Source of the DNA: Prorocentrum cordatum
Taxonomy: Eukaryota; Sar; Dinophyceae; Prorocentrales; Prorocentraceae
Assembly (NCBI GenBank): GCA_963575745.1
Contig: CAUYUJ010019609.1
Location: 106,563 to 170,562 of the forward strand
DNA length: 64,000 nucleotides
Direction of reading: 5' to 3'
In this document: piece after piece, positions 8,916 through 40,848 of the stretch
Position numbering within the stretch: position 1 is the stretch's first letter
How the letters are laid out: each line of letters opens with the position of its first letter
Position numbers and translations under genes: made by a program
The notes under the pieces: generated by a model
Database searches by the model: none
What the model was told of the DNA's origin: nothing
Seen by the model: only the letters and a program-made list of their open reading frames with translations

Positions 8916-9499
8916 AGTTCCAATGACTTCTTGGAAGTCCGGCCGCGCGCCGCGCTTTCCGAGCCCAGCGGGGTCCAGGTGTCATTCTATTGCCGACGAG
9001 ATGTTGGATAGGAGGGAGGCGAGCGGGAAGCTGCGCGGCAGTCTTAGGAATGGGATGTCCGACGATCTTACAGTGCTGAACCCTACTTTTTTTGGCTCCC
9101 AATATCTTGGTGGCTTCTACGTACTGTGCCAGAGCTTAAATTTTCAAGGGCACGTGCTGGGCGCGGGCGCCCGCCCACGCGCCCGGGTCGTCATCGAGGA
9201 GAAACTCGGAAAACTACGGGGTCTTGGGCCGCGAGAGGAAAGAGCCGCATTGAGGAAGAAGAGGAATTCGCATCGTCGTTCCTACAGACGGGATACTCAG
9301 GAATCGGAGTCGCCGCGATCTCGGGCCAGGGTGAAGCTTAAGCTCTCCGATCTCGAGGTCGATCGGGGCCGGTCTGATGATCGTCTCGCTTGGCACCAGG
9401 AGCTCGAGAAGTTTTGCAAGAAAAAGTTCTCTTCGGTGAGCAGACGGGTCGAGAATGGAAAATCCTGATGTCGACGAGGGAGGGGGCGGAGGAGGAGAT

Positions 9500-11475
9500 C
9501 CATTCGGGCGCGATGCTTTTTGCTATCAGCATGGGTGTTTTTTGCGCGGCCAAGGCCAAGCTGCGCAGTCGCCGTGCCACTGGTTCAGATTGATCGTTCT
9601 AATGGTGTCTCAAAGTGTTGTCCTGGTCGGGCCTCAATGTGATTAGGGGGTACTTTGGACCTCATCTGCGCCTTGCGACGCAGTGCCCTGTCAGTTGGCG
9701 CGAGGCGCTCATTTTTTACATGCCAGAAGCAAAAAGTATCACGCATTTGAAGGAGGGGGGGTTCCTGGTGATGCAGGCTTCACTCAGTCGCTGGCTCTCG
9801 TCTTGCATCGTTCTGCTCGTCGAAAAAAATCGGGGAGACTGGGCTCCTCAGGCGTCTCGGGATCGACGGCTGCAGGGAACGCCATTCCGCGCACCTGATC
9901 ACCTCGTCCCCCACATGCATATCACAACACAAAGTGCGCGGGGCAAGGGGGGGCACGTGTCACGTTGCCAACGTCGGTCGACGTTCTGCAAGCCTTCGAT
10001 GACACCAAGGTGGCTAACGTTTATCAGTGGCTACGGCATGCCGAATGTCCGTCTTACCTCATGCATGCGCGTCTTGATCCTCTGATATATTACCAGGGCA
10101 AGGTTTCCTATAAAGGTATGGAGGTGGAAGATGCGGGCTGGGAGCGTTGCATACGTGCGAGAACCACTGAGGGGCAATTTGCTTTCGTGTCTATTTGCGC
10201 CGCAGCGTGGGCGGATATTTCCTCGGTCTGGGACAGGGAGCAGGTCGATTATCCCGCGCAGTTCCGCTCTGGGGAGTTCTCCAAGGACAGTTGGATTAGC
10301 CTCCTTATCTGGGTGGACATTGTGTTCCTGGTTGCCAAGTGCCGTTGAGGGTTCACCAGGATGTTTTGTGACATATCTTATACACTCTCTTCGTTCTCGT
10401 TTGCTTGGAAAACTTCTAGCATACAGTACATGGTTCGTACATATTATGTTCGGATTCTGGCGAACGGGACGGTGGCTCCTGGTCAAGATCTCGCCCTGTC
10501 CTCCGTAAAGCCACGGAGATTCAGGCCTTGGGCGTGGTGGTCATACATGACCACAACCATCGCATTCACCGCGACTTGGAGTATCGTCTATCTTGTGCTC
10601 GGAAGGCCTGTTCAGCCAGGCATCGTACTTTCGTTCTCAAGGTGTGGAGCTTCGTCGCAAGTTCGTTGTATGTCGAGCGGGTGCTGAGCCTGGCCTTATG
10701 CTGCTGCGAAGGCATGACCGTCGACTCTCGGACTCTCGGCGTTGCAAGCGTTCGGAAACAAATGTCTGGCCGCGGTGTTCAGGTCCATCGTTTCCACCTT
10801 TTCGTTTACCATTCTCTGGTCAAGATTCCTTTGCGCGCGATGATTTTTCCAAAGACGCATGTAGCTTCCTGGGTATTCTGATGGGGGACACAAGTGACAA
10901 CGTCGATAACATCTTGGGAATTTGGAGTGAACACCATATCATGTGTTGTGATTCGTTTGGGCCCTACTTGAACGCGGGGAGGACGGAGGTGCAGGAGACA
11001 CATGGGGAGGAGGTGAGAATGTGGATCAACGCAGCTGGCAAGATTCTCTTGTTGAGTTCTACGGACCACGGCGGTGGCTTTCGTTCGAGGGGAGTTTGTG
11101 GGCGGAACATGTTTGCAAGCCGTCAATGTCGTTCAATTTCCAGCAATACAGCACGTTCGGGAACAAGAATTGCCCACTCTTTCTGAAAATGAGTTCGGAG
11201 ATCCAGGGGGGCACTTGTATTTCACCTGCTGGTTTGGGGCATCTGGCGAAACGTTTTGCCATCCATGACATGAGGAAGACAATGTGAGATTCGGCGACCC
11301 CTGGTTTCGGTCTTCAGATTCTAGGCGACTCCGCGATTGTGACGAGCTAGCTTTCAGGTCGCGCCCGCGCTTTGAGTCGCGGGTACATTGAGAGGGTGTA
11401 CAGTCTCACTAATTAGCTTGTTTATCTTCGTTATGTGTCTTCTGTAAGGCCTCCTTGTAGAGGCACCGACATCAC
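9500..11475 (+). pseudogene. LINE reverse-transcriptase pseudogene, interrupted by the LINE at 11475
   Basis: Collinear fragments in shifting frames align with the RTs elsewhere in the window. KLRSRRATGSD and WCLKVLSW near 9560-9620 match RLREGKAVGAD and ARMLRSLSW of the 14.4-17.4 kb RT. SLSRWLSSCIVLLVE matches SLSRWYSACVVILVE of the 37.5-39.9 kb RT. After these come VLQAFDD (motif A region), GWERCIRARTTEGQ (motif B region), WVDIVFLVA (motif C, where relatives have WADN), EFYGPRRW and LAKRFAIH. Near 11320 LQILGDSAIVTS marks the first permuted RNase H motif, and VRPPCRGTDIT near 11450 still aligns (IRPFAPGRDLI). The match stops exactly where the minus-strand LINE ends. Many frameshifts and stops show it is dead. 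Sequence between 8916 and 9500 may be its upstream part, but I cannot support that. Confidence 0.82.
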
Positions 11476-11530: not shown

Positions 11531-12013
11531 ACAGCTGTGACAGCTGAGCCCTAAAACTCCCAAACGGAGCACAGGGTAGCTAGAGAAGGCATCTCTTATC
11601 ATCACACTGCCGAGCCACTGAGGCATAGGCATCGGAATAGGATGCAGGAACAAGGAAAAGGATGCAGCACGACATGTGAAATTGCAAAGGTGTAGGAACA
11701 GGTTAGAGATGAAAGAGGCTACCCAAATCGTGCACCACGGCCATACAGAGCCGTTGCGCTGCAAACATCACACAGAACACGACAGAAGCAGAGGCATCAA
11801 GCGAGAAAGCTTCCTCCGCCACGAACAGCCACGTCCCGTGTACACACAAACCTAAACACCATCCTGCAGCACATCCCTCCACAGAGCGACCTCCGTAGAA
11901 GAATCCACGGAGGCCGTCTAGTTTTGTTTCACTCGCATGTTCAATAAGGGAAGTATGGAATACAACGTAACAATTTCTGGTTCTGGCCAACCATGTCAGC
12001 CTATGTGCAATCA
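11531..12013 (-). other. LINE 3' untranslated region
   Basis: Between the end of ORF3 and the terminal sequence I see no domain. Short open frames (for example 11354-11764) run through the terminal repeat and are not supported. Confidence 0.5.
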
Positions 12014-14369: not shown

Positions 14370-17357
14370 CTAGTATCCTGCCAAACGCAGGCACTCCTCC
14401 ACTCCCAAAAGGAGTTGTCGGGCAGACTCTAACTCTGCTGCAGTGATAGTGCTCGAGGGGGGAAGGAGGAAAGAGGATGAAGCCACGTTGGGCTCCCACA
14501 CGCCACTCGGGAGAGTGACAGGATAGTCAGCAACAGAAGAGGAGCACAAATGGAAATCAATCTGCCAGCCACAGCCTACGCCCAGATAGGATCTTCCACC
14601 ATCGAAGCTTCCCCGAATAGCGTCGATCAGAATAGCGTTAGCTTTAACATGGGATAGGAAATCATGCCTAAAATGTGTTCTACAAATTCCCTGTCGAGCT
14701 CTGTGTGTTAGCTCATCCGCAGCAGTATTGTCCTCCCTGTACACCCACTTGAAGATATGTCTCCCAAGAGGGGCCGCCTGCACACCACATCTCTTAGCTA
14801 GAGTGTCTAAAGTATTATGAATACCGCCCACAATCTTGTCATAATGCACATTAGCAGAAAAATACAATCCTTGGATCCACCGCACAAAACATTGAGAGTC
14901 TCCCTTCAGTTCAACGGCAAGCCTCCCCGCCTGGAACTCCCACTCCGTGTAATCCTCCAATATCTTGGCATACCGTTTGGACAACACCTCCTCCTTCTTC
15001 CTGCTGGGCTCCTCCGAAAGTACCTCCTCATCCCTCTCCTCCATAGGCTTCCAAGGAATAGGATCTTTAAGAACCAGGAAATCAGAAACACCAGGAACCT
15101 GGAGAAGCGTAAAAACTTCGCGAGCAAACTTGACCCAGGCCTCCTCCGTCCATTCCAGTACATGGTACCAGTTTTCCCCTCCCACGAGCTCAAAAGGTGT
15201 TCTCCACGGGCGCATGCCGATAGGAACTCGGCCAGTCCTCGCACGAGTCCCAGCACGTCCAGCCTGGCTTCCTAGAGATAATACCAGATCATCCCGCCTG
15301 GATTCCCACTCCCCTCCACCGTGCAACATGGACAGTCGTGCCTGCAGGTAGCCATTGACAGCAGTGCCAGTGTCCACCACCGTAGGCTGATTGTAATAAC
15401 GGGTTGGGTCCTCGAACCTGTCTCTGAGCCTCGCCGTATTCTGTGAAAGTTGGGCCCTCTGACGCTTGGCCTCATTCATGCACATCGTCTTTCTTTTCCG
15501 TCGGTTCATGGGCTCGGAGGGCGTCGTATTATCAGCAGAAGCACCAGGAGCATACAAAGGAGACGGCACCAACTGTGAGCCACACACCACAGATACCTCC
15601 TCCACGCCACCACCGTCTCTGCCAAAACAAGACAATGCAATATCTTTCGCCCATCTCCACTGCCGATACAAGAAGACTTGTGCGAGTGGAGGTCTGCCAG
15701 CTTCACATAAAGTTTGCCTCCCTCTTCTGTACATGCGCGACATGAATACAGCCCACCCCTCCCCCTCCCTCTCTGCTCTCCACGTCATCCTGCTCAACAT
15801 CTTCCCCTCCTCCTTATGTATAAAAGCAATCGTAGAACTGTCAACCGTGGCTCCTTCCAAGCCGAAAAGAAACTTAGATCTCACTCTCGATTCATATCGC
15901 CTAAATTTATTCTTCCCAGCAATTCCCATGGAGGTGTAAAACGCACGATCATTCCAGAAAGCACGAACAGCTTTTCCCATACGACATCGCACATCATCAT
16001 GATCCTTGAAATTCCTCGCAATCATAGTCCCGAACACAATAATCTCATCCACCTGCGGAATGGTAATACTCTCAGGGAGAGACACATTGGGCCCCCTGGA
16101 CATACCTGGCGGGAACAACGTCACCATGAGAGGCTCCGTCACACCGGTGGTAGTTCCCACATCCATGAACTCAAGACTGCTCTGCTTCAAACGAAAGCCA
16201 TGATCGTGGAGAGCCCACGTCAACTGTAAAATCATATTAGCCAGTGTGGGGCGATCAGGAGCCGTAAGAAGCACGTTGTCCGCCCATATGAAGTGACTCA
16301 CAACAATACCTCCCACCTCACTAGAGAGTTCAACACCGACAGCATCTCTCGCCCAAGCAGAAGTAATATCACCAAACATGACCAATGATTGAGCAGTCCA
16401 CAGGTCAGGTCCTTCCTTGGAACCTGTCTTCACACACGTTGTCCAAGGGAGCGTATCAGTGCAGACACCCTCAAATTGAAAGACCGCCTCATTACCGACA
16501 GAGTTCTCAATAAGACCATACCGAAGCTCCACATCAACACACAAACGCTCAAGCGTAGAAGAAGCAACTTGGACAGTGAGCAAATCAAATGCAGTGGCAA
16601 CGTCCAAGGAAGCAAAAACAATATTCTCCTCCTTCCCCCACAACCTGGCATGTCTACACATCGCCTTCAATCCCGACGTCACCTCATGTGTCTTACGACC
16701 TTGCTGGAAACCATACAAGCACAGAGACGGAGCAACAGCAGGAGCAATAGACACCAAGTGCAAATTGAGTAGAATACACAAGCAGCCCATATACCATGTG
16801 TTAACGACAGAATTCACAGCAAGAGTACGACTCTCATCAAACCTCTTTTCCCTTCCGTTCTTCAACATAATAGATGCACGAATGAACTTCCAAGACTCAG
16901 GTGCCTCTGCCATTCGCCAGAAGCGTCGCTGGAAGCAGTCTAACACCACACGTAGGGCTTCCCAGGACAAAGAACGTAACATGCGTGCACTGATACCGTC
17001 AGCACCTACAGCCTTGCCTTCACGAAGCCTCGAACGAGCACGACAGAGAAAATGCATGGTAATAGGAGAAGGAGTGTGAGTGCTGCACGCACGTGCCTCA
17101 TCAGCTTGAACCCGAAGCTGCTCCAGAGTCGCCAAGTTCATAGCAAGACGTTCCGACTTAGAGTACTTAGCCCTGACCACCCTCGTCATATCCTCCTTCC
17201 ACTTACTGCGGTCTTCACACCATTCCCCGTCGATCATCATAGTTAGTAACAGTCTTAGTCTTGACCCCATCCCGATAACGATAAAGAAGTAGACGTTTCT
17301 TGAACTGCCTTCGAACACGATTCCAACGACGACGACTATCCTTGAACGTGGCCCCAT
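14370..17357 (-). CDS. LINE ORF2 part 2: reverse transcriptase with C-terminal permuted RNase H
   Basis: The frame gives 995 residues; the meaningful part starts near residue 40 (about 17240), where it takes over from the upstream endonuclease frame. RT landmarks are GKAVGADGISARML (114-127), YGFQQGRKT (215-223), motif A with Asp252 in SLDVATAFD, motif B in TGSKEG (311-316), and motif C as WADN (358-361), with Asn in place of the usual second Asp. After the thumb and a linker containing RPWRTPFELVGGENW, the RNase H signature residues appear in rotated order: GDS (Asp820), NTAAD (Asp881), FDGG (Asp919) and AAEL (Glu975). The role is copying element RNA into DNA at a nicked target. The frame is intact to its stop at 14370. 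The +1 shift from the endonuclease frame may be a mutation or a programmed shift. Confidence 0.88.
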   Translation of the reverse strand: MGPRSRIVVVVGIVFEGSSRNVYFFIVIGMGSRLRLLLTMMIDGEWCEDRSKWKEDMTRVVRAKYSKSERLAMNLATLEQLRVQADEARACSTHTPSPITMHFLCRARSRLREGKAVGADGISARMLRSLSWEALRVVLDCFQRRFWRMAEAPESWKFIRASIMLKNGREKRFDESRTLAVNSVVNTWYMGCLCILLNLHLVSIAPAVAPSLCLYGFQQGRKTHEVTSGLKAMCRHARLWGKEENIVFASLDVATAFDLLTVQVASSTLERLCVDVELRYGLIENSVGNEAVFQFEGVCTDTLPWTTCVKTGSKEGPDLWTAQSLVMFGDITSAWARDAVGVELSSEVGGIVVSHFIWADNVLLTAPDRPTLANMILQLTWALHDHGFRLKQSSLEFMDVGTTTGVTEPLMVTLFPPGMSRGPNVSLPESITIPQVDEIIVFGTMIARNFKDHDDVRCRMGKAVRAFWNDRAFYTSMGIAGKNKFRRYESRVRSKFLFGLEGATVDSSTIAFIHKEEGKMLSRMTWRAEREGEGWAVFMSRMYRRGRQTLCEAGRPPLAQVFLYRQWRWAKDIALSCFGRDGGGVEEVSVVCGSQLVPSPLYAPGASADNTTPSEPMNRRKRKTMCMNEAKRQRAQLSQNTARLRDRFEDPTRYYNQPTVVDTGTAVNGYLQARLSMLHGGGEWESRRDDLVLSLGSQAGRAGTRARTGRVPIGMRPWRTPFELVGGENWYHVLEWTEEAWVKFAREVFTLLQVPGVSDFLVLKDPIPWKPMEERDEEVLSEEPSRKKEEVLSKRYAKILEDYTEWEFQAGRLAVELKGDSQCFVRWIQGLYFSANVHYDKIVGGIHNTLDTLAKRCGVQAAPLGRHIFKWVYREDNTAADELTHRARQGICRTHFRHDFLSHVKANAILIDAIRGSFDGGRSYLGVGCGWQIDFHLCSSSVADYPVTLPSGVWEPNVASSSFLLPPSSTITAAELESARQLLLGVEECLRLAGY

Positions 17358-18614
17358 CGATCTGACCAGATTTCCAGAGTTTGTGAACCCTGTAGTGGGC
17401 CTCTTTCACCTGAGCTTCCTCCTGGGTCAACTTCGGGACGAGTGAAGCCGATTTAAAGCCATAACAGCGTTTATCGGCAACAGCCCCCTCCTTCAATCGT
17501 GATTCCAGGTCGGCTAGAGAAACAGAACTCCACCTAGTATGCCAAATCACCCTTCCCTCAGACTCCTCCGTGCAGTACTGATTTTTGCGTTTGTTATTTT
17601 GGCCGCTCCCCCCTCCAGATTTCCACCCAGCAACCTGTGTTACAGCCATATCAAACTCTCTGTACTGTTTCAACTCCTTACCCTCCTGCACAAACCACGA
17701 AGCGAACGATCGACTGCCAGTGGCCTTCGTCCTACCAGAGGACTTTCCCTGCAGCAAACAAGGGAGATCAAAACATATCATCTTGTGGTCACTCCATTCC
17801 GTGTCCCGAGAGCCAGGAGGATGCGCATACATAACGTGCAACTTCGAACACATAACATGAGTCTCCCAAGTCACAGGGCACGCAACATAATCAATGACGT
17901 GTTTTGCCCTAGCACCTCCACCACACCAGGTAAACTCACGATCCATGAATGTGTTGATCAGCTTCAGACGTAGCTGGGCCATACAGACACACCAGGCACG
18001 CGCACATGCACCCTGCAACGCCTTCCTGCCAAAGCCCTCCTCCTCCCTCACAGTGCGCACATTCACACCACCACCAGAGATACGAAGTCGATCGATCTCA
18101 ACATGAGGCTGCACTTCAACATTGGCGTCGGCACAAACAACGTCACGGATACTGTACTTTTGACGCATGCGCACCACAGCACTCGATAATTCAAGAAGAA
18201 CGTTCTGGTACAGATGGAACGTGGCCTGGTACCCCTCAGACGTTGTCCCAAAGAAGCCCTGCTGAGGAAGATACACGCTAGCATAGATGAATGCGCCCAC
18301 TTCTGGCCCACGGAAGGCACAGACCGCAAATCTTCTACCAACAGCGTGCCCCAAGAAACAGGAGTTGAGAGTAGACGAGAATACTACACCTGCTTGGCCC
18401 TCCATCGAGCCACTGTCAAGCTTCACCTCAGCCGAGCAGCGATAGTGGAAACCAGCCTCATTCAACGTATCTCGTCTGAGGAACTGGCACTCCTGGAGCC
18501 CGACGAGTTGCACTCCAAGCTCACGCAAGTAAGGAAGAGCAGATAGAGCAGTAGCATCACTCATAATTCTGACGTTCCAACTGGCCGCCCTCAGCGGGCG
18601 AGTACGTCGTCACA
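17215..18614 (-). CDS. LINE ORF2 part 1: AP-like (EEP family) endonuclease
   Basis: This is an endonuclease/exonuclease/phosphatase domain, which in LINEs nicks target DNA to prime reverse transcription. The first ATG is at 18564, but the canonical opening strand (AASWNVRIM) lies just before it. The open frame reaches back to a TGA near 18614, so the domain must start upstream of that ATG or the ORF is translated from a longer message. Motifs, numbered from the ATG: LQECQ with Glu25, CADAN (145-148, the usual GDFN position), HVIDYV (222-227) and WSDHK (257-261). These are the metal-binding and catalytic blocks in the right order. The C-terminal 180 residues are basic. The reading frame ends at 17215, while the RT frame, offset by one base, carries on from about 17240. 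Confidence 0.85.
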
Positions 18615-18756: not shown

Positions 18757-19806
18757 TCAAGCCCAAGACATCACAGGAGACCCATACTGAATACGTACAC
18801 GATTGTTTTTCTTCAACGGGTTCCTCAAACGAAAGTATGTAGCTGTAAGTTTACTGCCAGCACTCACCTGTCCCTCACGCCAAGGCTCACACTGCACACG
18901 ACTGCCGATGCACGACTGGGTAGCTGCAAGAAGAGAATCATCTTTCCAAAGAGAACCCGCGCGCGAGGAGATAGCCTTCCAGAACTCCTCCCTGACCTTC
19001 CAGACAGCATCCTTACTCGTGCCGTGTACGAAGAAAATACGCAGCCTAAAGACACCGAACGGCTTGCCCTGGTACTCTCTCTTAATGGCCTCACGATCAA
19101 AGATCTTCGCATTTACCTCAAACTGCGAGCCAACTTCATCCAAGAGAATCTGGATAACTCTGGTGGCCCTGGCCTCAGACATGATGTTACTCGTACGAGC
19201 CTGGACATCTCGAGGGTCTCCCGAAGTCCAGCCCGAGAGCGTCAAGTATCCAGGGACAAATGGGGGTGTGTTCCTAGGGCCTGCATTGCCTCCAAGACTC
19301 ACCCGAGTAGATACAGAGGCAGCCTCACTGGCCGCACCATCATTCCCTACCGTCGCTAACTGCTTCTGAACCTGAGCATGCACCGCCTCCTGCTGCTGCT
19401 GCTGCTGCCTCACCACCTCCTTAAGTTGTTCAAGGTCCGACTTCAAGGGTGCAACCTCCTGCTGGATATCCTTCCTCACCTCCTCCTTATGTTCCGTCAG
19501 AGTACATTTGAGCATATCTGCCAAATTCTGGAACTCATTTCGCAATAGACCAATAGTGACAGGTTCTTTGTCATCTGAAGCGCCCTTACCACCCATCCCA
19601 GCACGAGCCATCTTGGAAGACCTGGAAGCATCCCCCACCTCGCCCCTCTCACTGATCTGCTTCATAGAGACATCAGCACAAGCGGCAGCAGCAGATGCAA
19701 AGGAATGAGCAGGGCCATGATGCATCACAAGTTGTGGTGGGTGGCCAGCAGAAGAAGGGTCTGTCGACATCGAATCTGCGATACGTCCTGCTTTCGAAGC
19801 CTCCAA
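18757..19806 (-). CDS. LINE ORF1: coiled-coil, probable RNA-binding protein
   Basis: The frame gives about 350 residues; the first ATG is at 19770. The frame is open upstream to about 19902 and encodes an acidic, protein-like stretch (SEDDWDFEGWDEIPE), so the true start may lie further 5' with a non-ATG or lost start. A Ser/Ala-rich N-terminus is followed by a heptad-like region of about 65 residues (FQNLADMLKCTLTEHKEE to HAQVQKQLATV) with a poly-Gln run. A folded part of about 150 residues follows (RATRVIQILLDEVGSQF, PFGVFRLRIFF, EEFWKAISS). A coiled coil followed by an RRM-like or ORF1p-like fold is usual for LINE ORF1 proteins, which bind element RNA. That fold is inferred from position and pattern only. 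Confidence 0.65.
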   Translation of the reverse strand: MEASKAGRIADSMSTDPSSAGHPPQLVMHHGPAHSFASAAAACADVSMKQISERGEVGDASRSSKMARAGMGGKGASDDKEPVTIGLLRNEFQNLADMLKCTLTEHKEEVRKDIQQEVAPLKSDLEQLKEVVRQQQQQQEAVHAQVQKQLATVGNDGAASEAASVSTRVSLGGNAGPRNTPPFVPGYLTLSGWTSGDPRDVQARTSNIMSEARATRVIQILLDEVGSQFEVNAKIFDREAIKREYQGKPFGVFRLRIFFVHGTSKDAVWKVREEFWKAISSRAGSLWKDDSLLAATQSCIGSRVQCEPWREGQVSAGSKLTATYFRLRNPLKKNNRVRIQYGSPVMSWA

Positions 19807-23100: not shown

Positions 23101-25160
23101 TGGCGCCGGCGGTGAACCGTCAACCTGATCTTTTGCGGTCTTTGCGGTCGACTGCGCGGGCCGCCAGGCCCAGTCGCAAGCAAGAAACGGGCAACATACA
23201 GGTGAGCCAAACCGCCCACCACAGCGAGTGCGGCAGGCAGGGAGCAAAGCTCTTATAAAGAACAAGTGACCGTCAAGCGAAGCTCTTATTCGACACACGT
23301 GCATGCATGAACACACAAGTATAAAGAAAACAACGCAATCACAAGTCACAACAGTTCAAACTCAAAGTATGTGTGAACAACCCGTGGGAGAACATCAATG
23401 ATATGTTCGATCGCCGACAACTCGGCATCAGTAACTGAAGCATTGTTGCCGATAGAGAAAGCAGCACTATACACCTCCGTCCACACAATATCTCTGGAGC
23501 TCGGCTTACGACAAGTCCGCGAGACCCGACCGACATCAATCCAGCAACCGACTCCGACACCCGCCGTCGACACACCGCCATCGAAGCCACAGTCGATGGC
23601 ACAATACCTGTAAAGACTCGAGAACTCATTGGGCTCCTGCCCGATACGATCCTGAAATATGTCGATGCCCTCACGGGCAGTATGAGTGAGCACGTCCGCC
23701 CTTGTATTCCATTCCCTGAAGCAGTGTTCGATCAGATCTCGTCCAGGAGCAAATGGGCGAATATGAAACATAAAAGACATACCATCCAGACAGCTAATCA
23801 TCCTGTCAACTCTTCTCTGAAAATCTTTGTTGCTGACTTTCCAGTACCCCTGGCACCATGATACAACCAAAAGACTATCTCCATGGATACTTATGGGGAC
23901 CCCGGAGGCCTCAAGATCCCACTCGGCATTTTCCCATTTGGACGTGTGTACAGCAAGTCGTTTAGCAAGACGATCATTGGCAAGTTGTGATCCCTCCTCA
24001 ACTCCATACTCCTGAAGTTCCTGCTGCGTTTGGATATAGACCTCACCAGCAACCCGAGGATGACTGAGAGCTTTAGCACGGATCTGGAAACAATCAAGCA
24101 TATCCCGTGAACACACGCGTGCGGCGAACTGCTCAAAGGTCCCAGGCGTAGCACGGAATCCTTCCCACCACTTGGGGCCGAAGAACTCCGAAAACGTGTG
24201 GGTCCAATGTCGTTGTCCGATAGCCAAGCCCCCTCCCCGTTGGCGTTTCATCTGACTGGATTCCCGAAAGCAGAAATTCATGCGCAGGAACTCCGAGGCA
24301 TCCGTACGTATACGATCCCCCCGCACACCATCTGCACACAAGCACGCACGTACATCACGCCAAGTTCGATCAGCACCCCTCCATTCATCATATGTATCCA
24401 CATCGAGCACATGGATAAACTCGCACATGTCTTTGGCCAAGGTCCAGGAAACACGACGAAACCTCTGCGCCAAGGAAGCGAAACCCAACTCCTTAAATTT
24501 CCTCCTAGCCTCCGCGTACCTCCTCCGATTCCAAGTGGAAACATCCTCCTCAGGTCCCCTGGGACAAGTGAACATTTTGCAAAGACAGAGCCCCTCGAAG
24601 GAGTGCATACGCTGCAGAGAATGGTTGTCGAGCGTCATACCCTCAATACCGTACATGGCAATCCCCTGTACCTTCTCCTGATAGCTCCAGAATTTATCAC
24701 GAAAACTCACAGCAGAAAATCGGAAATAGTTGGACATGCCGAAGAAGCTCTTACGTGCCATGGACAGACGATAATCAAAATCGGGATGAGTAGGAGTATT
24801 GAACTCAGAATGGATCTCGGCCCCGAGCACATTCATCGATGAAACTCTTCTGAAGCGCAAGACCTCAGGCGTGGCTACAATGAGATCCTCCTCAGGTACG
24901 ATGACGCCATCCGCATTACAGCGAGGTGCAAGGCCACATGTCATGAAGAGAAGCGATGACGCCTTCCACGCCATGCCGAAAGAATCAAGTGGTAGAGTTA
25001 GATCGTGCATAATGCTCCTGAGGTCTGCAGACGAGCCGGCTACAAGATAGACATTGTCAGCCCAGAGGAAGTGGCTGATGATGAGCTCCTTACGCCTGGA
25101 CCCGTAGAGTCCTTCGACACGGTAGACCATTCCCTTCACATCCCACGATCTGAAGACCTC
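23101..25160 (-). mobile_element. 5'-truncated LINE, second copy
   Basis: The minus strand carries the C-terminal two thirds of an RT-RNase H protein, a 3' untranslated region with AATAAGAGC and a G/C-rich segment (GCGACTGGGCCTGGCGG), and ends GGTTGACGGTTCACCGCCGG plus CGCCAG. The 5' end is cut just upstream of motif C, at a GTTCTACGAGGTC sequence resembling the repeat-family terminal motif. 5' truncation with an intact 3' end is the expected result of target-primed reverse transcription. Confidence 0.83.
23346..25159 (-). CDS. LINE reverse transcriptase (partial) with permuted RNase H
   Basis: An open frame of about 600 residues without its N-terminal RT half. The in-frame sequence before the first possible start (VFRSWDVKG) matches IFRDWDSRG of the 37.5-39.9 kb RT, so the protein originally extended upstream. 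Numbered from codon 25139: WADN (26-29, motif C) in SHFLWADNVYLVA, then a palm/thumb region and a linker with TFSEFFGPKWWEGF. The C-terminal RNase H signatures are in rotated order: GDS with Asp421, NTRAD with Asp482, GFDGG with Asp520 and TDAEL with Glu573. The last 189 residues align without a gap to the last 189 of the 37.5-39.9 kb protein. The frame is intact to its stop, but the truncated protein cannot be active alone. Confidence 0.87.
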
Positions 25161-37253: not shown

Positions 37254-39913
37254 CTGGGCGCCGGCGGTAAACCGTCAACCTTCCTTTTTGCGGACTTTGC
37301 GGTCGACTGTGCAGGCTTTCCAGCCTAGTCGGAAGCAAGGAGCGGGCGCATCGGGAGTAGGCGGAAGCCTCACCGATCCAAACGATCAGAGGCGAAAGCC
37401 AACTCTTATTAGGAGGATGAGAGGTCAAGCACACACACACGACAAACGAGGGCATGGCGTGAGTGAGCACAATCAAAATCACATCATATCCTGTCCGAAA
37501 TACGCTTGTACAACCCGCGGCAAGATCATAATCGTATGCTCAACGGCCGAGACCTCGGCATCAGTCACTGTTGAAGTTGGATCAATCGAGAACGCCGCAC
37601 TGTACACCTCCGTCCAAATGATCTCATGGCTGAGTGGCTGCCTTGAGAGTCTCGATACCCTTCCAACATCTATCCAGCACCCGACTCCCACGCCGTCGCA
37701 AGAGACACCACCATCGAATCCAGCTCTGATGGCACAAACGCGAAACACCTGTTGTAACTGAGGGGCGTGAAGCCCTATCCTATCTCGAATCACTGGTGGC
37801 CCGACGCGGGCCGTATGAGTGAGTACATCTGCACGTGTGTTCCATTCCCTATGTGTGTGGTCAATAATTTCCCTCCCGTGACAGGCGGGCCTAATTCCAT
37901 GTCTTTGACACATGTTGTCGAGTTGGTTTATCATTCTGTTGATCCTATCTTGATACCTACGATTTAGCACCCTCCAGACACCCTGCAGCCAAGACACCAC
38001 CAGAAGACTGTCCCCAGAAATATACACAGGGATCCCAAATGAGTCGAGGTCGTACTCAACCTCCTTCATATTTTGTAACGCAATACGTTTGGCCAGTTTG
38101 TCGTTGAACGCCGCAGTGCCCTCTTGGGCCCCATAGGTGTGTAGGTCGCTTTGTGTGATAGTAAGTACCTCCTGCGGGGCCCCACCTGTTGTACCGTACC
38201 CTTTTCTTTTCTGAAAGTAACTCAGCATCGTCCGTGTACACATGTGCTCGCAGAACTGAACATACGCAGCATCTGTCGGCACAAAGGACTCCCACCATTT
38301 GAGTCCGTAGAATTCGCAGAAAGAAAATAGCCAGCATCTCTGGCCGACAGCTCGACCTGAACTAACATGTCTCCTTTTTAGCTGCGAAGCCTCTTGGAAG
38401 TGAAACATACCCCGCAAGCACTCAGACGCATCCGTCCTGAGTCTGTCCCACAATGGGCCATACGCAACCGTAGTCATGTGGTGATCTCTCCACGTACGTT
38501 GCGTCGAAGATATATCCTCATGAGAAGCAGTACACATCATAGAAATGAAATCTGCAGCATCCTTCGCGGAGTTCCACACCATACGAAGAAATCTCTGCAA
38601 CAAACTCGCAAATCCATAAGATCGGAATTGCTCTCTGGCCTCGTGGTATCGTCGTCGGTTCCAGTCCGCCATAATCTCCTCCTCTCTCCTCGGCCGTCGA
38701 AACATACGGCACAAACACCATCCCTCGAAGGCATTGAGCATGTGTAGCGAGGAAGCATCCGCAGTACATGTCTCTAGACAATACAACGCCATACTCTGCA
38801 CCTTGTCTTGATAACGGCAAAACTTATCACGAACAGCAACCGCTCTGTTACGAAAGAAATTCGATTGTCCAATGAAACAAGCTCGAGCCTCCTTGATGCG
38901 ATATTCAACATCAGGATGAGCAGGCACTAGGTATGTGGAGAAAATCTCATGACCCAATACTTTCACACTGCCAACACGTCGAAGTCTAAAGCCCTGATAT
39001 CTCGAGCACGCAGGTATACACAAATCCTCGCTGGTAAGTATATGTCCGTCACCGTCCACTTTAGCATTCTCCCCACATGTCATGTACAACAGGCTGCTAT
39101 CCTTCCACCTCATCCCCCAGTCATGTAGTGGTAGTGTTAGATCGTGCATCATCTGAGCCAACATAGTTGAGGAGGCAGAGACAAGGTAGCAGTTGTCCGC
39201 CCACACAAAGTGGTTCACAGTTGTCCGTCGCTCATACTCACCACAGACGCTCTCCAGCACATACCCCACACCTCTACTGTCCCAATCCCGAAATATAGGT
39301 CCCCACATGGCACATATGATAAGATTAAATAGAAGAGGCCCCTCAGGGCCGCCCGTCCGTATGCAGACGTCCCAGTTGATGTCGTGAATGGCCATACCCT
39401 CGACAACTAACGACCCCGTAGTGCAAACCAGCGGTGATAGCAAAGCATACTGGAGATAGGCAGGAATATTGGCATGGCACATAGCACGTTTGGCGTTTAG
39501 AAGGCTGCAGTGGTCGAACGCTTGTTTGATATCGGCGTTAGCGATATGGACCGTCTGATCTTTTCCCCAGATGTCCCCGTGTTGAGCCAGAGCCTTGAGG
39601 GCCCCCACAATTTCCACCGTCTTACGTCCCTCCTGGAAGCCGTAGATGCCCAGGGGTCCCATGAGGCCAGCCCGAGACACAAATTGTTCGACCAAGATCA
39701 CCACGCAAGCAGAGTACCAACGGCTGAGACTGTTTTGCAGACAGAGGTACCGCGCATCTGTCAGCGATGTCAAGCTCGGCAGCTTGGGCATGAAGGCGAT
39801 CAAAATCTGCCTCCAATCCTGCGGATACTGCCGTGCCAAGCGAAATATATCATCAAACATCCGAGCAACGCCACGCAAAGTCGCCCACGGCAATGCCTTG
39901 AGGATTTCACAAC
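37254..39913 (-). mobile_element. 5'-truncated LINE, third copy
   Basis: The minus strand carries RT plus permuted RNase H, a 3' UTR with AATAAGAGTT, the segment CAGTCGACCGCAAAGTCCGC, and the terminus GGTTGACGGTTTACCGCCGG followed by CGCCCAGT. It sits inside the A-repeat mosaic. On the right it joins CCGCCGGGGGACTCGTAGAG, which in other copies is the second half of the hairpin. The LINE body therefore replaces only the hairpin loop region. Confidence 0.87.
37479..39911 (-). CDS. LINE reverse transcriptase with permuted RNase H, N-terminally truncated
   Basis: The open frame (876 residues from 40109) includes about 66 N-terminal residues that come from A-repeat and hairpin DNA; RT homology starts near residue 67 (39911). 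Landmarks: NSLSRWYSACVVILVEQ (126-142), YGFQEGRKT (156-164), motif A Asp193 in NADIKQAFD, motif B in RTGGPEGPLLFNL (251-263), and motif C WADN (303-306). A linker with FSFCEFYGLKWWESF follows. The RNase H signatures are rotated: SGDS with Asp700, NTRAD with Asp761, GFDGG with Asp799, and TDAEV with Glu852. The RT is otherwise intact and the best template for structure prediction in the window. It probably lost its endonuclease and ORF1 by 5' truncation. Confidence 0.88.
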   Translation of the reverse strand, partial: CEILKALPWATLRGVARMFDDIFRLARQYPQDWRQILIAFMPKLPSLTSLTDARYLCLQNSLSRWYSACVVILVEQFVSRAGLMGPLGIYGFQEGRKTVEIVGALKALAQHGDIWGKDQTVHIANADIKQAFDHCSLLNAKRAMCHANIPAYLQYALLSPLVCTTGSLVVEGMAIHDINWDVCIRTGGPEGPLLFNLIICAMWGPIFRDWDSRGVGYVLESVCGEYERRTTVNHFVWADNCYLVSASSTMLAQMMHDLTLPLHDWGMRWKDSSLLYMTCGENAKVDGDGHILTSEDLCIPACSRYQGFRLRRVGSVKVLGHEIFSTYLVPAHPDVEYRIKEARACFIGQSNFFRNRAVAVRDKFCRYQDKVQSMALYCLETCTADASSLHMLNAFEGWCLCRMFRRPRREEEIMADWNRRRYHEAREQFRSYGFASLLQRFLRMVWNSAKDAADFISMMCTASHEDISSTQRTWRDHHMTTVAYGPLWDRLRTDASECLRGMFHFQEASQLKRRHVSSGRAVGQRCWLFSFCEFYGLKWWESFVPTDAAYVQFCEHMCTRTMLSYFQKRKGYGTTGGAPQEVLTITQSDLHTYGAQEGTAAFNDKLAKRIALQNMKEVEYDLDSFGIPVYISGDSLLVVSWLQGVWRVLNRRYQDRINRMINQLDNMCQRHGIRPACHGREIIDHTHREWNTRADVLTHTARVGPPVIRDRIGLHAPQLQQVFRVCAIRAGFDGGVSCDGVGVGCWIDVGRVSRLSRQPLSHEIIWTEVYSAAFSIDPTSTVTDAEVSAVEHTIMILPRVVQAYFGQDMM

Positions 39914-40848
39914 CCGCCGGGGGACTCGTAGAGCTTCCTGACAATATATAATATGGGCAAAAAAATGTAGAGAACGAATAGTTTTTCAGCCCAAGCGATT
40001 TCAGACCTCTCGATGCAACAGCCGAACGCCCCCGATGCTTCTGGATTGTCTTTTTTGCGAGCTCTGTAGCTCTCCTAAAGCCCGAGTTTCGTGCGTGAAT
40101 CGACAGCACCTCTCAAGTAACAAAACGAATAGGGCAACCCAGCTCGAGTATCAGACTGAGTTCAGACCTCTGAATGCGACATGCGGTGATGTCTGCGAAC
40201 CGACGACGCGCCTAATCTCTTCGAATCGATACCTGTGACCACCAGCACTGTAGCCCCCCCCAGCCCGAGTTGAGTGCAGAAAACCGAGAGTACTTCTCGA
40301 GATGACTCGAACAATACGAATAGTTTCGCGATTCTAGATCGGGCAGCAGACCGAGTTCAGAGCTCTGGATTCATGCGACTGATGATTATAAATCAGTTTT
40401 TGTAAGCATCAGCTCTGTAGCTGTCCTATAGCTCGAATTGAATACAGAAAACCGAGAGCGTCAGTCAAGATGACTCGAATAATACGAATAGGTTTGCGGA
40501 CCTAGCTCGGTTAGCAGACCGAGTTCAGACCTCTGGATGCAACAGACGAACGCGCCTGATCATTCTGAATCGATTAGCTGTGCTTATCAGCTCTGTAGCT
40601 GTCCTCAAGCTCAGTTATGTTCAGAAAACCGACAGTGCGTATCAAGATGACTCGAAACGGCCGATACCGCCTGGACGCTTTTTGGCAGTCAAAGGTACTC
40701 GATCGAGCTGAGATCGAAATGGCGAGTGGGAATAAGATCGAATAGCACGGGAAGAAATACTAGAGCTCTAACGAATGGTTGAATTTCGAGAACAAAATTT
40801 TCAAGCGACCAAAAGCCAGACAAGGTCCGTCGAGATTTTTCTTGGCAA
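39914..40848 (+). mobile_element. family A element
   Basis: Left TIR GACTCGTAGAGCTTCCTG, AT-rich stretch, about four units and the A tail to CGAGATTTTTCTTGGCAACT. The right TIR is missing; a new hairpin starts at 40849. It is the downstream remainder of the element that carries the LINE. Confidence 0.75.

Follow-up and report, generated by a model that had tools for sequence, protein, structure and literature searches.

Viral and long terminal repeat (LTR) reverse transcriptases (RTs) encode their own RNase H and are contrasted in this respect with the non-LTR RTs compared in parts of one published account, which also set out how long interspersed nuclear elements (LINEs) in general nick the target DNA, reverse transcribe from the nick, remove the RNA and synthesize the second strand (PMC10830420). 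In L1 elements of plants and oomycetes, an archaea-like RNase H (aRNH) is located at the C-terminal end of open reading frame 2 (ORF2), according to the main text of a second study (PMC5348765). We describe here a group of LINEs from a 64,000-nt stretch of the Prorocentrum cordatum genome (contig CAUYUJ010019609.1, positions 106,563-170,562; this whole stretch is referred to as the window, and all coordinates are window positions). The C-terminal domain of their ORF2 protein is very probably a complete archaeal-type RNase HI that has been circularly permuted, such that the second half of the fold comes first and the first half ends the protein.

The closest known enzymes are the archaeal-type RNases HI, represented by Sulfolobus tokodaii ST0753 (PDB 2ehg/3aly), LC11-RNase H1 (3u3g/4h8k) and Halobacterium salinarum RNase H1 (4e19), which are 21-26% identical to the LINE domain over the superposed half. 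As in the Sulfolobus enzyme, the LINE domain has xDS in strand 4, RExN followed by AD in helix E, FDG in strand 1 and xAE in helix A. Unlike these enzymes, it has its halves swapped, its termini in the loop between helix A and strand 4, and a long insertion between strands 2 and 3. The presence of an archaea-like RNase H in a LINE is shared with the aRNH-bearing non-LTR elements (Ta11/L1 of plants, L1 and Utopia of oomycetes). However, those elements are not described as permuted in the main text of PMC5348765, where no word in "permut-" occurs, whereas the domain reported here is permuted and accompanied by an RT motif C that reads WADN. Among the open-licence papers listed by searches on permuted RNases H and on dinoflagellate LINEs, none mentions a retroelement with a permuted RNase H domain in its title or in the opening of its abstract. 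Thus, an archaea-like RNase H at the C-terminus of a LINE ORF2 is already known, and it is the circularly permuted form that we did not find reported for retroelements in these parts of the literature.

A first-pass annotation of this DNA had placed the candidate catalytic residues of copy A (Table 1) at Asp700, Asp761, Asp799 and Glu852, and had proposed that three LINE proteins of the window share this rotated order. Translation of copy A reproduces the four positions exactly, with GDS at residue 699, NTRAD at 757, FDGG at 798 and TDAE at 849, and the ORFs of copies B and C have the same motif order, with NTAAD and TAAE in B. Adding ten relatives (2 + 2 + 6) recovered from 5.8 billion proteins gave a family of 13 proteins. 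All 13 have the order GDS, xxAD, FDGG, TxxE, with 12-15 amino acids between the halves and a C-terminal end 20-25 amino acids past the Glu, as recorded in databases. The ten relatives are not all independent, since P0003, P0005, P0008 and P0009 are 80-95% identical to each other in the domain and P0006 and P0007 are nearly one protein. Nevertheless, identity among the 12 aligned domain rows ranges from 28 to 95%, and A-type elements (A, C, P0001 and P0002) are only 28-35% identical to the eight B-type rows. The swapped order must be older than the split between the two types, given that it is common to both. The four acids are invariant in all 12 rows, and the two halves contain only one further column with an invariant acid, the Glu of the RExN motif preceding the last Asp. 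Searches of viral contigs with A, A1 and A2 yielded no relatives.

The half of the domain that is placed first (from GDS to AD; hereafter the GDS half) is firmly identified as an RNase H homologue by sequence and structure. Its profile matched a 64-row profile of archaeal-type RNase HI with a pairwise hhalign E-value of 5.4e-13, and Foldseek superposed it on archaeal-type RNase HI at 2.8 Å over 76 columns. Sequence searches of the PDB with two profiles of the rotated domain pointed the same way. All of the six chains listed with the first were RNases H or proteins related to them (best E 0.006), and the second gave five RNases H among six chains (best E 0.0023), the sixth being a designed protein at E 1. 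These RNase H chains match through the GDS half and comprise only three or four distinct proteins. The aligned region takes in RExNxxAD, and the Arg of RExN is paired there with the R of the Sulfolobus VPREEN segment. Archaea-like RNases H have an Arg in place of His in the active site, according to the main text of PMC5348765, and we tentatively read the Arg of RExN as this diagnostic residue.

The half that is placed last (from FDGG to the Glu of TxxE; hereafter the FDGG half) is the more difficult part of the argument. Its profile scored no better against RNase HI than column-shuffled versions of itself, 23 of 200 of which reached its score, and the scores of its parts were reached by 25, 30 and 81 of 200 shuffles. 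Against a profile of two RNase HI units in tandem, the family profile in native order gave an alignment that was confined to the GDS half and did not cross the junction. Native proteins matched no RNase H family in Pfam at its cut-off, and single-sequence Pfam scans with the domains of A, B and C, in native or rotated order, together with a PDB search with rotated B, gave no useful match. Ten rotated members compared with Pfam included five that matched RVT_3 at E-values up to 10 (best 0.007). Retroelement RNase H domains are usually sought with profiles built on the ordinary order, and these detect no more than half of the present domain. The separate comparison of the halves that the first-pass annotation had called for gave a clear answer for the GDS half and left the FDGG half within the range of its shuffles.

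The register of the FDGG half, in contrast, fits. When the domain is re-rotated in silico and aligned to Sulfolobus RNase HI, the Glu of the FDGG half falls on the E52 column at the default threshold. At a low threshold all four catalytic carboxylates (D-E-D-D) are present and in place, with the Asp of FDGG on D7 and the acids of the GDS half on D76 and D125. Of 1000 shuffles of the FDGG half, 113 put the Asp on its catalytic column, 69 did so for the Glu, and 7 placed both correctly. Tested as separate segments, the stretch from strand 1 to strand 2 reached its column in 25 shuffles out of 400, and the stretch from strand 3 to helix A in 10 out of 400. AlphaFold2 models of two divergent members (the B and A domains; predicted local distance difference test, pLDDT, of 85; predicted template modelling scores, pTM, of 0.81 and 0.79) both have RNase H elements arranged in the order β4-αB-αD-β5-αE-[linker]-β1-β2-β3-αA, where the element names were assigned by position, with the acids at the canonical places in the secondary structure. 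The rotated RNase H fold that had been expected is thus what the two models predict. The ordinary chain order of RNase HI, β1-β2-β3-αA-β4-αB-αD-β5-αE, is encountered neither in the sequences nor in the models, and we consider the domain a permuted relative of archaeal-type RNase HI, not an ordinary member. VIA and Foldseek listed no full-length RNase H match to the models, a result that says little given that both align in chain order only.

The most serious alternative is that only the GDS half is RNase H, truncated or degenerate in the manner of the retroviral connection domain, and that the C-terminal β-β-β-α unit is unrelated, its FDGG and TxxE motifs being accidental. The shuffle results for the FDGG half, and the fact that no listed structure match from the chain-order aligners spans both halves, are what such a protein would give. 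Against it, both acids of the FDGG half occupy the catalytic columns in register with RNase HI, the alignment of 12 sequences shows no variation in FDGG or the Glu, and the β-β-β-α unit is predicted with its acids at canonical places in a whole-domain model with a pTM near 0.8. The equivalents of D700 and D761 are, moreover, kept in all 40 genome copies compared (described below), although a lone GDS half would have little reason to keep them. We regard this alternative as improbable. The homology of the FDGG half, not proven by profile score alone, is proposed from its register, the secondary structure predicted for it and the model of the whole domain.

A complete rotated domain also presupposes that no ordinary half lies nearby. 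The first-pass annotation had seen no FDGG-like strand before GDS and had named a conventional segment from strand 1 to helix A upstream of GDS as the finding that would overturn the permutation. In the 106 columns before strand 4 there are four invariant residues (W, W, R and A), none of them acidic, and these columns did not match the first half of RNase H when compared with an RNase HI profile. We also found no second GDS half among the four best matches of each test in the 2 kb past the stop codons of A, B and C, and no second FDGG half, again among the four best matches of each test, in the part of each ORF before strand 4 together with 1.5 kb upstream; the best E-value in these searches was 0.014, and the motifs were missing from the matches inspected. 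As far as the profile and column searches reach, the earlier observation thus holds. Overall, the proposal of a complete rotated domain instead of a fragment is largely borne out, with a profile of the FDGG half that is not significant by itself. In both models a helix precedes strand 4 (residues 23-42 in B and 27-41 in A), where the ordinary helix A would stand. Its columns contain an invariant RxA and no invariant Glu. This helix may be a remnant of a duplicated domain, or may simply be linker.

The short connection between the halves (12-15 amino acids plus the lead-in to strand 1) would also fit a domain swap, in which RNase H folds form between two ORF2 molecules and a dimer shares the active site. 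Given that the monomer models are confident, we think this very unlikely.

The genome provides a second view of the domain. A search of the 4,128,499,153-base assembly with copy A gave at least 52 scored matches, including A itself, from 17,977 first-look candidates. These are 93-100% identical to A; 47 of the 52 have no internal stop, and 33 are part of a 1323-codon open frame, as counted from the match table. We fetched 20 copies with flanks, all picked for this open frame. Each encodes, from the first ATG, a 1287-amino-acid ORF2 with the order GDS, NTRAD, FDGG, TDAE/Q, and 17 of them have an ORF of 369-598 amino acids just upstream. Their pairwise nucleotide identity is 98.4-99.8% (mean 99.2), and similarity stops about 200 bp past the ORF2 stop. 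As judged from these sequences, the element appears to have been recently mobile.

A set of 40 copies (the 20 picked copies, 19 of 20 further copies fetched for the 3´ part, and A) was used to follow the catalytic residues. Each of the three Asps is kept in all 40 and the Glu in 39, and none of the 40 domains contains a stop. In the exception (L105), Gln replaces the catalytic Glu at ORF2 residue 1263 in an otherwise open ORF2. The ratio of nonsynonymous to synonymous polymorphism (pN/pS), based on distinct changes, is 0.27 in each half, the GDS half having 17 nonsynonymous to 18 synonymous changes and the FDGG half 9 to 10. In the 20 picked copies alone the FDGG half had looked relaxed (6 to 3, pN/pS 0.61) compared with the GDS half (0.09), and since the two sets differ for the FDGG half, these within-family ratios are weak. 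Between A and C, the FDGG half has a ratio of nonsynonymous to synonymous divergence (dN/dS) of about 0.17 (0.345/2.04), with dS near saturation. Together, these comparisons show signs of purifying selection on both halves.

The Gln in one of 40 copies would suit a permuted fold that has given up catalysis and serves as a nucleic-acid clamp. This reading, about as unlikely as the domain swap, has to contend with the four acids and with the Arg and Glu of RExN (R754 in A), which are all invariant across A-type and B-type elements. The idea that the order is an artefact of a rearranged pseudogene or an assembly error can be dismissed, since, although copy A is 5´-truncated and copies D and E are decayed, nothing was found in favour of it for the order itself, whereas the 20 fetched copies, which had been selected for an open frame and lie on other contigs, all show this order within an uninterrupted 1287-amino-acid ORF, and the order recurs in proteins from other public records with 28-49% identity to the A domain.

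The remainder of ORF2 places the element among the LINEs. The Pfam RT family RVT_1 matched copy A just above its cut-off and B below it, and matched nothing in C. A family RT profile built from 8 sequences retrieved only LINE-1 ORF2p (E 2e-9) and R2 proteins (8e-5) from the PDB, and these are the nearest solved structures to the RT region; by sequence, the RT qualifies as the non-LTR type. In place of Y/FxDD, motif C of the RT reads WADN in all eight family proteins that span it (A, B, C, P0001, P0002, P0003, P0004 and P0006) and in all 20 long genome copies, so that the first Asp of the motif is kept and the second is Asn. The first Asp of motif C binds metal in known RTs. The N-terminal part of ORF2 is endonuclease-like, with invariant QE, DxN, DY and DH in four sequences, which we take to resemble the motifs of APE endonucleases; this part gave no match in Pfam or the PDB. 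In relative P0003, the endonuclease-like part, RT and RNase H are in one frame, and copies A and C are truncated on the 5´ side. In copy B, the endonuclease-like and RT parts, joined in one frame in P0003, lie in different frames that overlap by 143 bases; this may reflect a frame change in that copy or a frameshift signal.

We propose the following picture of the permuted domain. The old N- and C-termini would be joined by the linker of 12-15 residues and the lead-in to strand 1, the new termini would lie in the loop between helix A and strand 4, and the RT and its linker would enter the domain at strand 4, leaving the protein to finish with helix A. The halves would come together as a single fold whose two-metal active site cleaves the RNA strand of RNA:DNA hybrids. 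Such a domain would most likely clear template RNA from the hybrid with complementary DNA during target-primed reverse transcription, permitting second-strand synthesis. The permutation itself could have arisen when the RNase H segment was duplicated in tandem and the outer halves were then lost, in a common ancestor of A-type and B-type elements; this classical route is likely, and we saw no intermediate. With somewhat less confidence than for the permutation, we favour the view that these elements form a separate, recently mobile LINE clade in which a permuted, catalytically active RNase HI is joined to the RT through strand 4 and motif C is WADN.

Because the chain would come in at strand 4 and leave at helix A, the topology suggests that the RT is attached to another face of RNase H from the one used in retroviral and ordinary LINE proteins. 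If so, the RNase H active site is tethered otherwise to the polymerase, and hybrid cleavage could be coupled to synthesis in a new way; to our knowledge, no known retroelement couples the two through an RNase H so tethered. If confirmed, the domain would be a rewiring, achieved in nature, of an enzyme fold that is among the best studied. It would mean that retroelements can rewire RNase H, beyond gaining or losing it, and would provide a naturally made test case for folding and for the coupling between RT and RNase H. It would also suggest that annotations of protist LINEs miss RNase H domains.

Table 1. Positions of the LINE copies, their domains and associated repeats in the window
Feature	Position	Strand	Size or residues	Remark
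Copy A, 5´-truncated ORF2 (RT, linker, permuted RNase H)	37479..40109	-	876 aa
Copy A, permuted RNase H domain	37482..38057	-	residues 685-876
Copy A, second half of fold, placed first (β4-αB-αD-β5-αE)	37800..38057	-	residues 685-770	hhalign and model secondary structure
Copy A, linker between halves	37761..37799	-	13 residues (771-783)
Copy A, first half of fold, placed last (β1-β2-β3-αA)	37482..37760	-	residues 784-876
Copy A, Asp700 (GDS)	38010..38012	-		equivalent of S. tokodaii RNase HI D76
Copy A, Asp761 (NTRAD)	37827..37829	-		equivalent of S. tokodaii RNase HI D125
Copy A, Asp799 (FDGG)	37713..37715	-		proposed equivalent of S. tokodaii RNase HI D7
Copy A, Glu852 (TDAE)	37554..37556	-		proposed equivalent of S. 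tokodaii RNase HI E52
Copy A, RT motif C	39192..39203	-		WADN
Copy B, ORF with RT and permuted RNase H	14370..17357	-	995 aa
Copy B, permuted RNase H domain	14373..14945	-	residues 805-995	D820, D881, D919, E975
Copy B, RT motif C	16275..16286	-		WADN
Copy B, endonuclease-like part	17215..18564	-		other frame than RT part
Copy B, possible ORF1 protein	18757..19806	-		coiled-coil-like stretch; weak, sub-threshold coiled-coil families
Copy C, 5´-truncated ORF2	23346..25139	-	597 aa
Copy C, permuted RNase H domain	23349..23924	-	residues 406-597	D421, D482, D520, E573
Copy C, RT motif C	25053..25064	-		WADN
Copy D, decayed	8926..11473	+		several frame changes; matches extend into GDS half
Fragment E, β1-αA half alone of a copy	11736..11939	-		FYGG replacing FDGG
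Other copies of the repeat that opens ORF A	33.9-34.1, 35.1-35.3, 36.2-36.3, 42.1-42.3, 46.7-46.9 kb

The 876-amino-acid ORF of copy A is not the full element, as the genome copies fetched in full have the longer ORF2. Codons 1 to approximately 60-75 of this ORF (39930-40109) are part of an interspersed repeat that is also present at other places in the window (Table 1). Fifty of the 52 genome matches begin at residue 61 or 65 of A, and two begin at residue 2, namely copy A itself and C1715, a 93% identical copy with stops; the junction between the repeat and ORF A is thus not unique to the window. Fragment E, whose catalytic Asp has been altered, sits tail to tail with the decayed copy D. By eye, genome copies (L089-L094) terminate some 200-230 bp past the ORF2 stop in a common G/C-rich 3´ end, not a plain poly(A), and the bases past the stop of copy C (below 23346), as translated, resemble the same G/C-rich end, also by eye.

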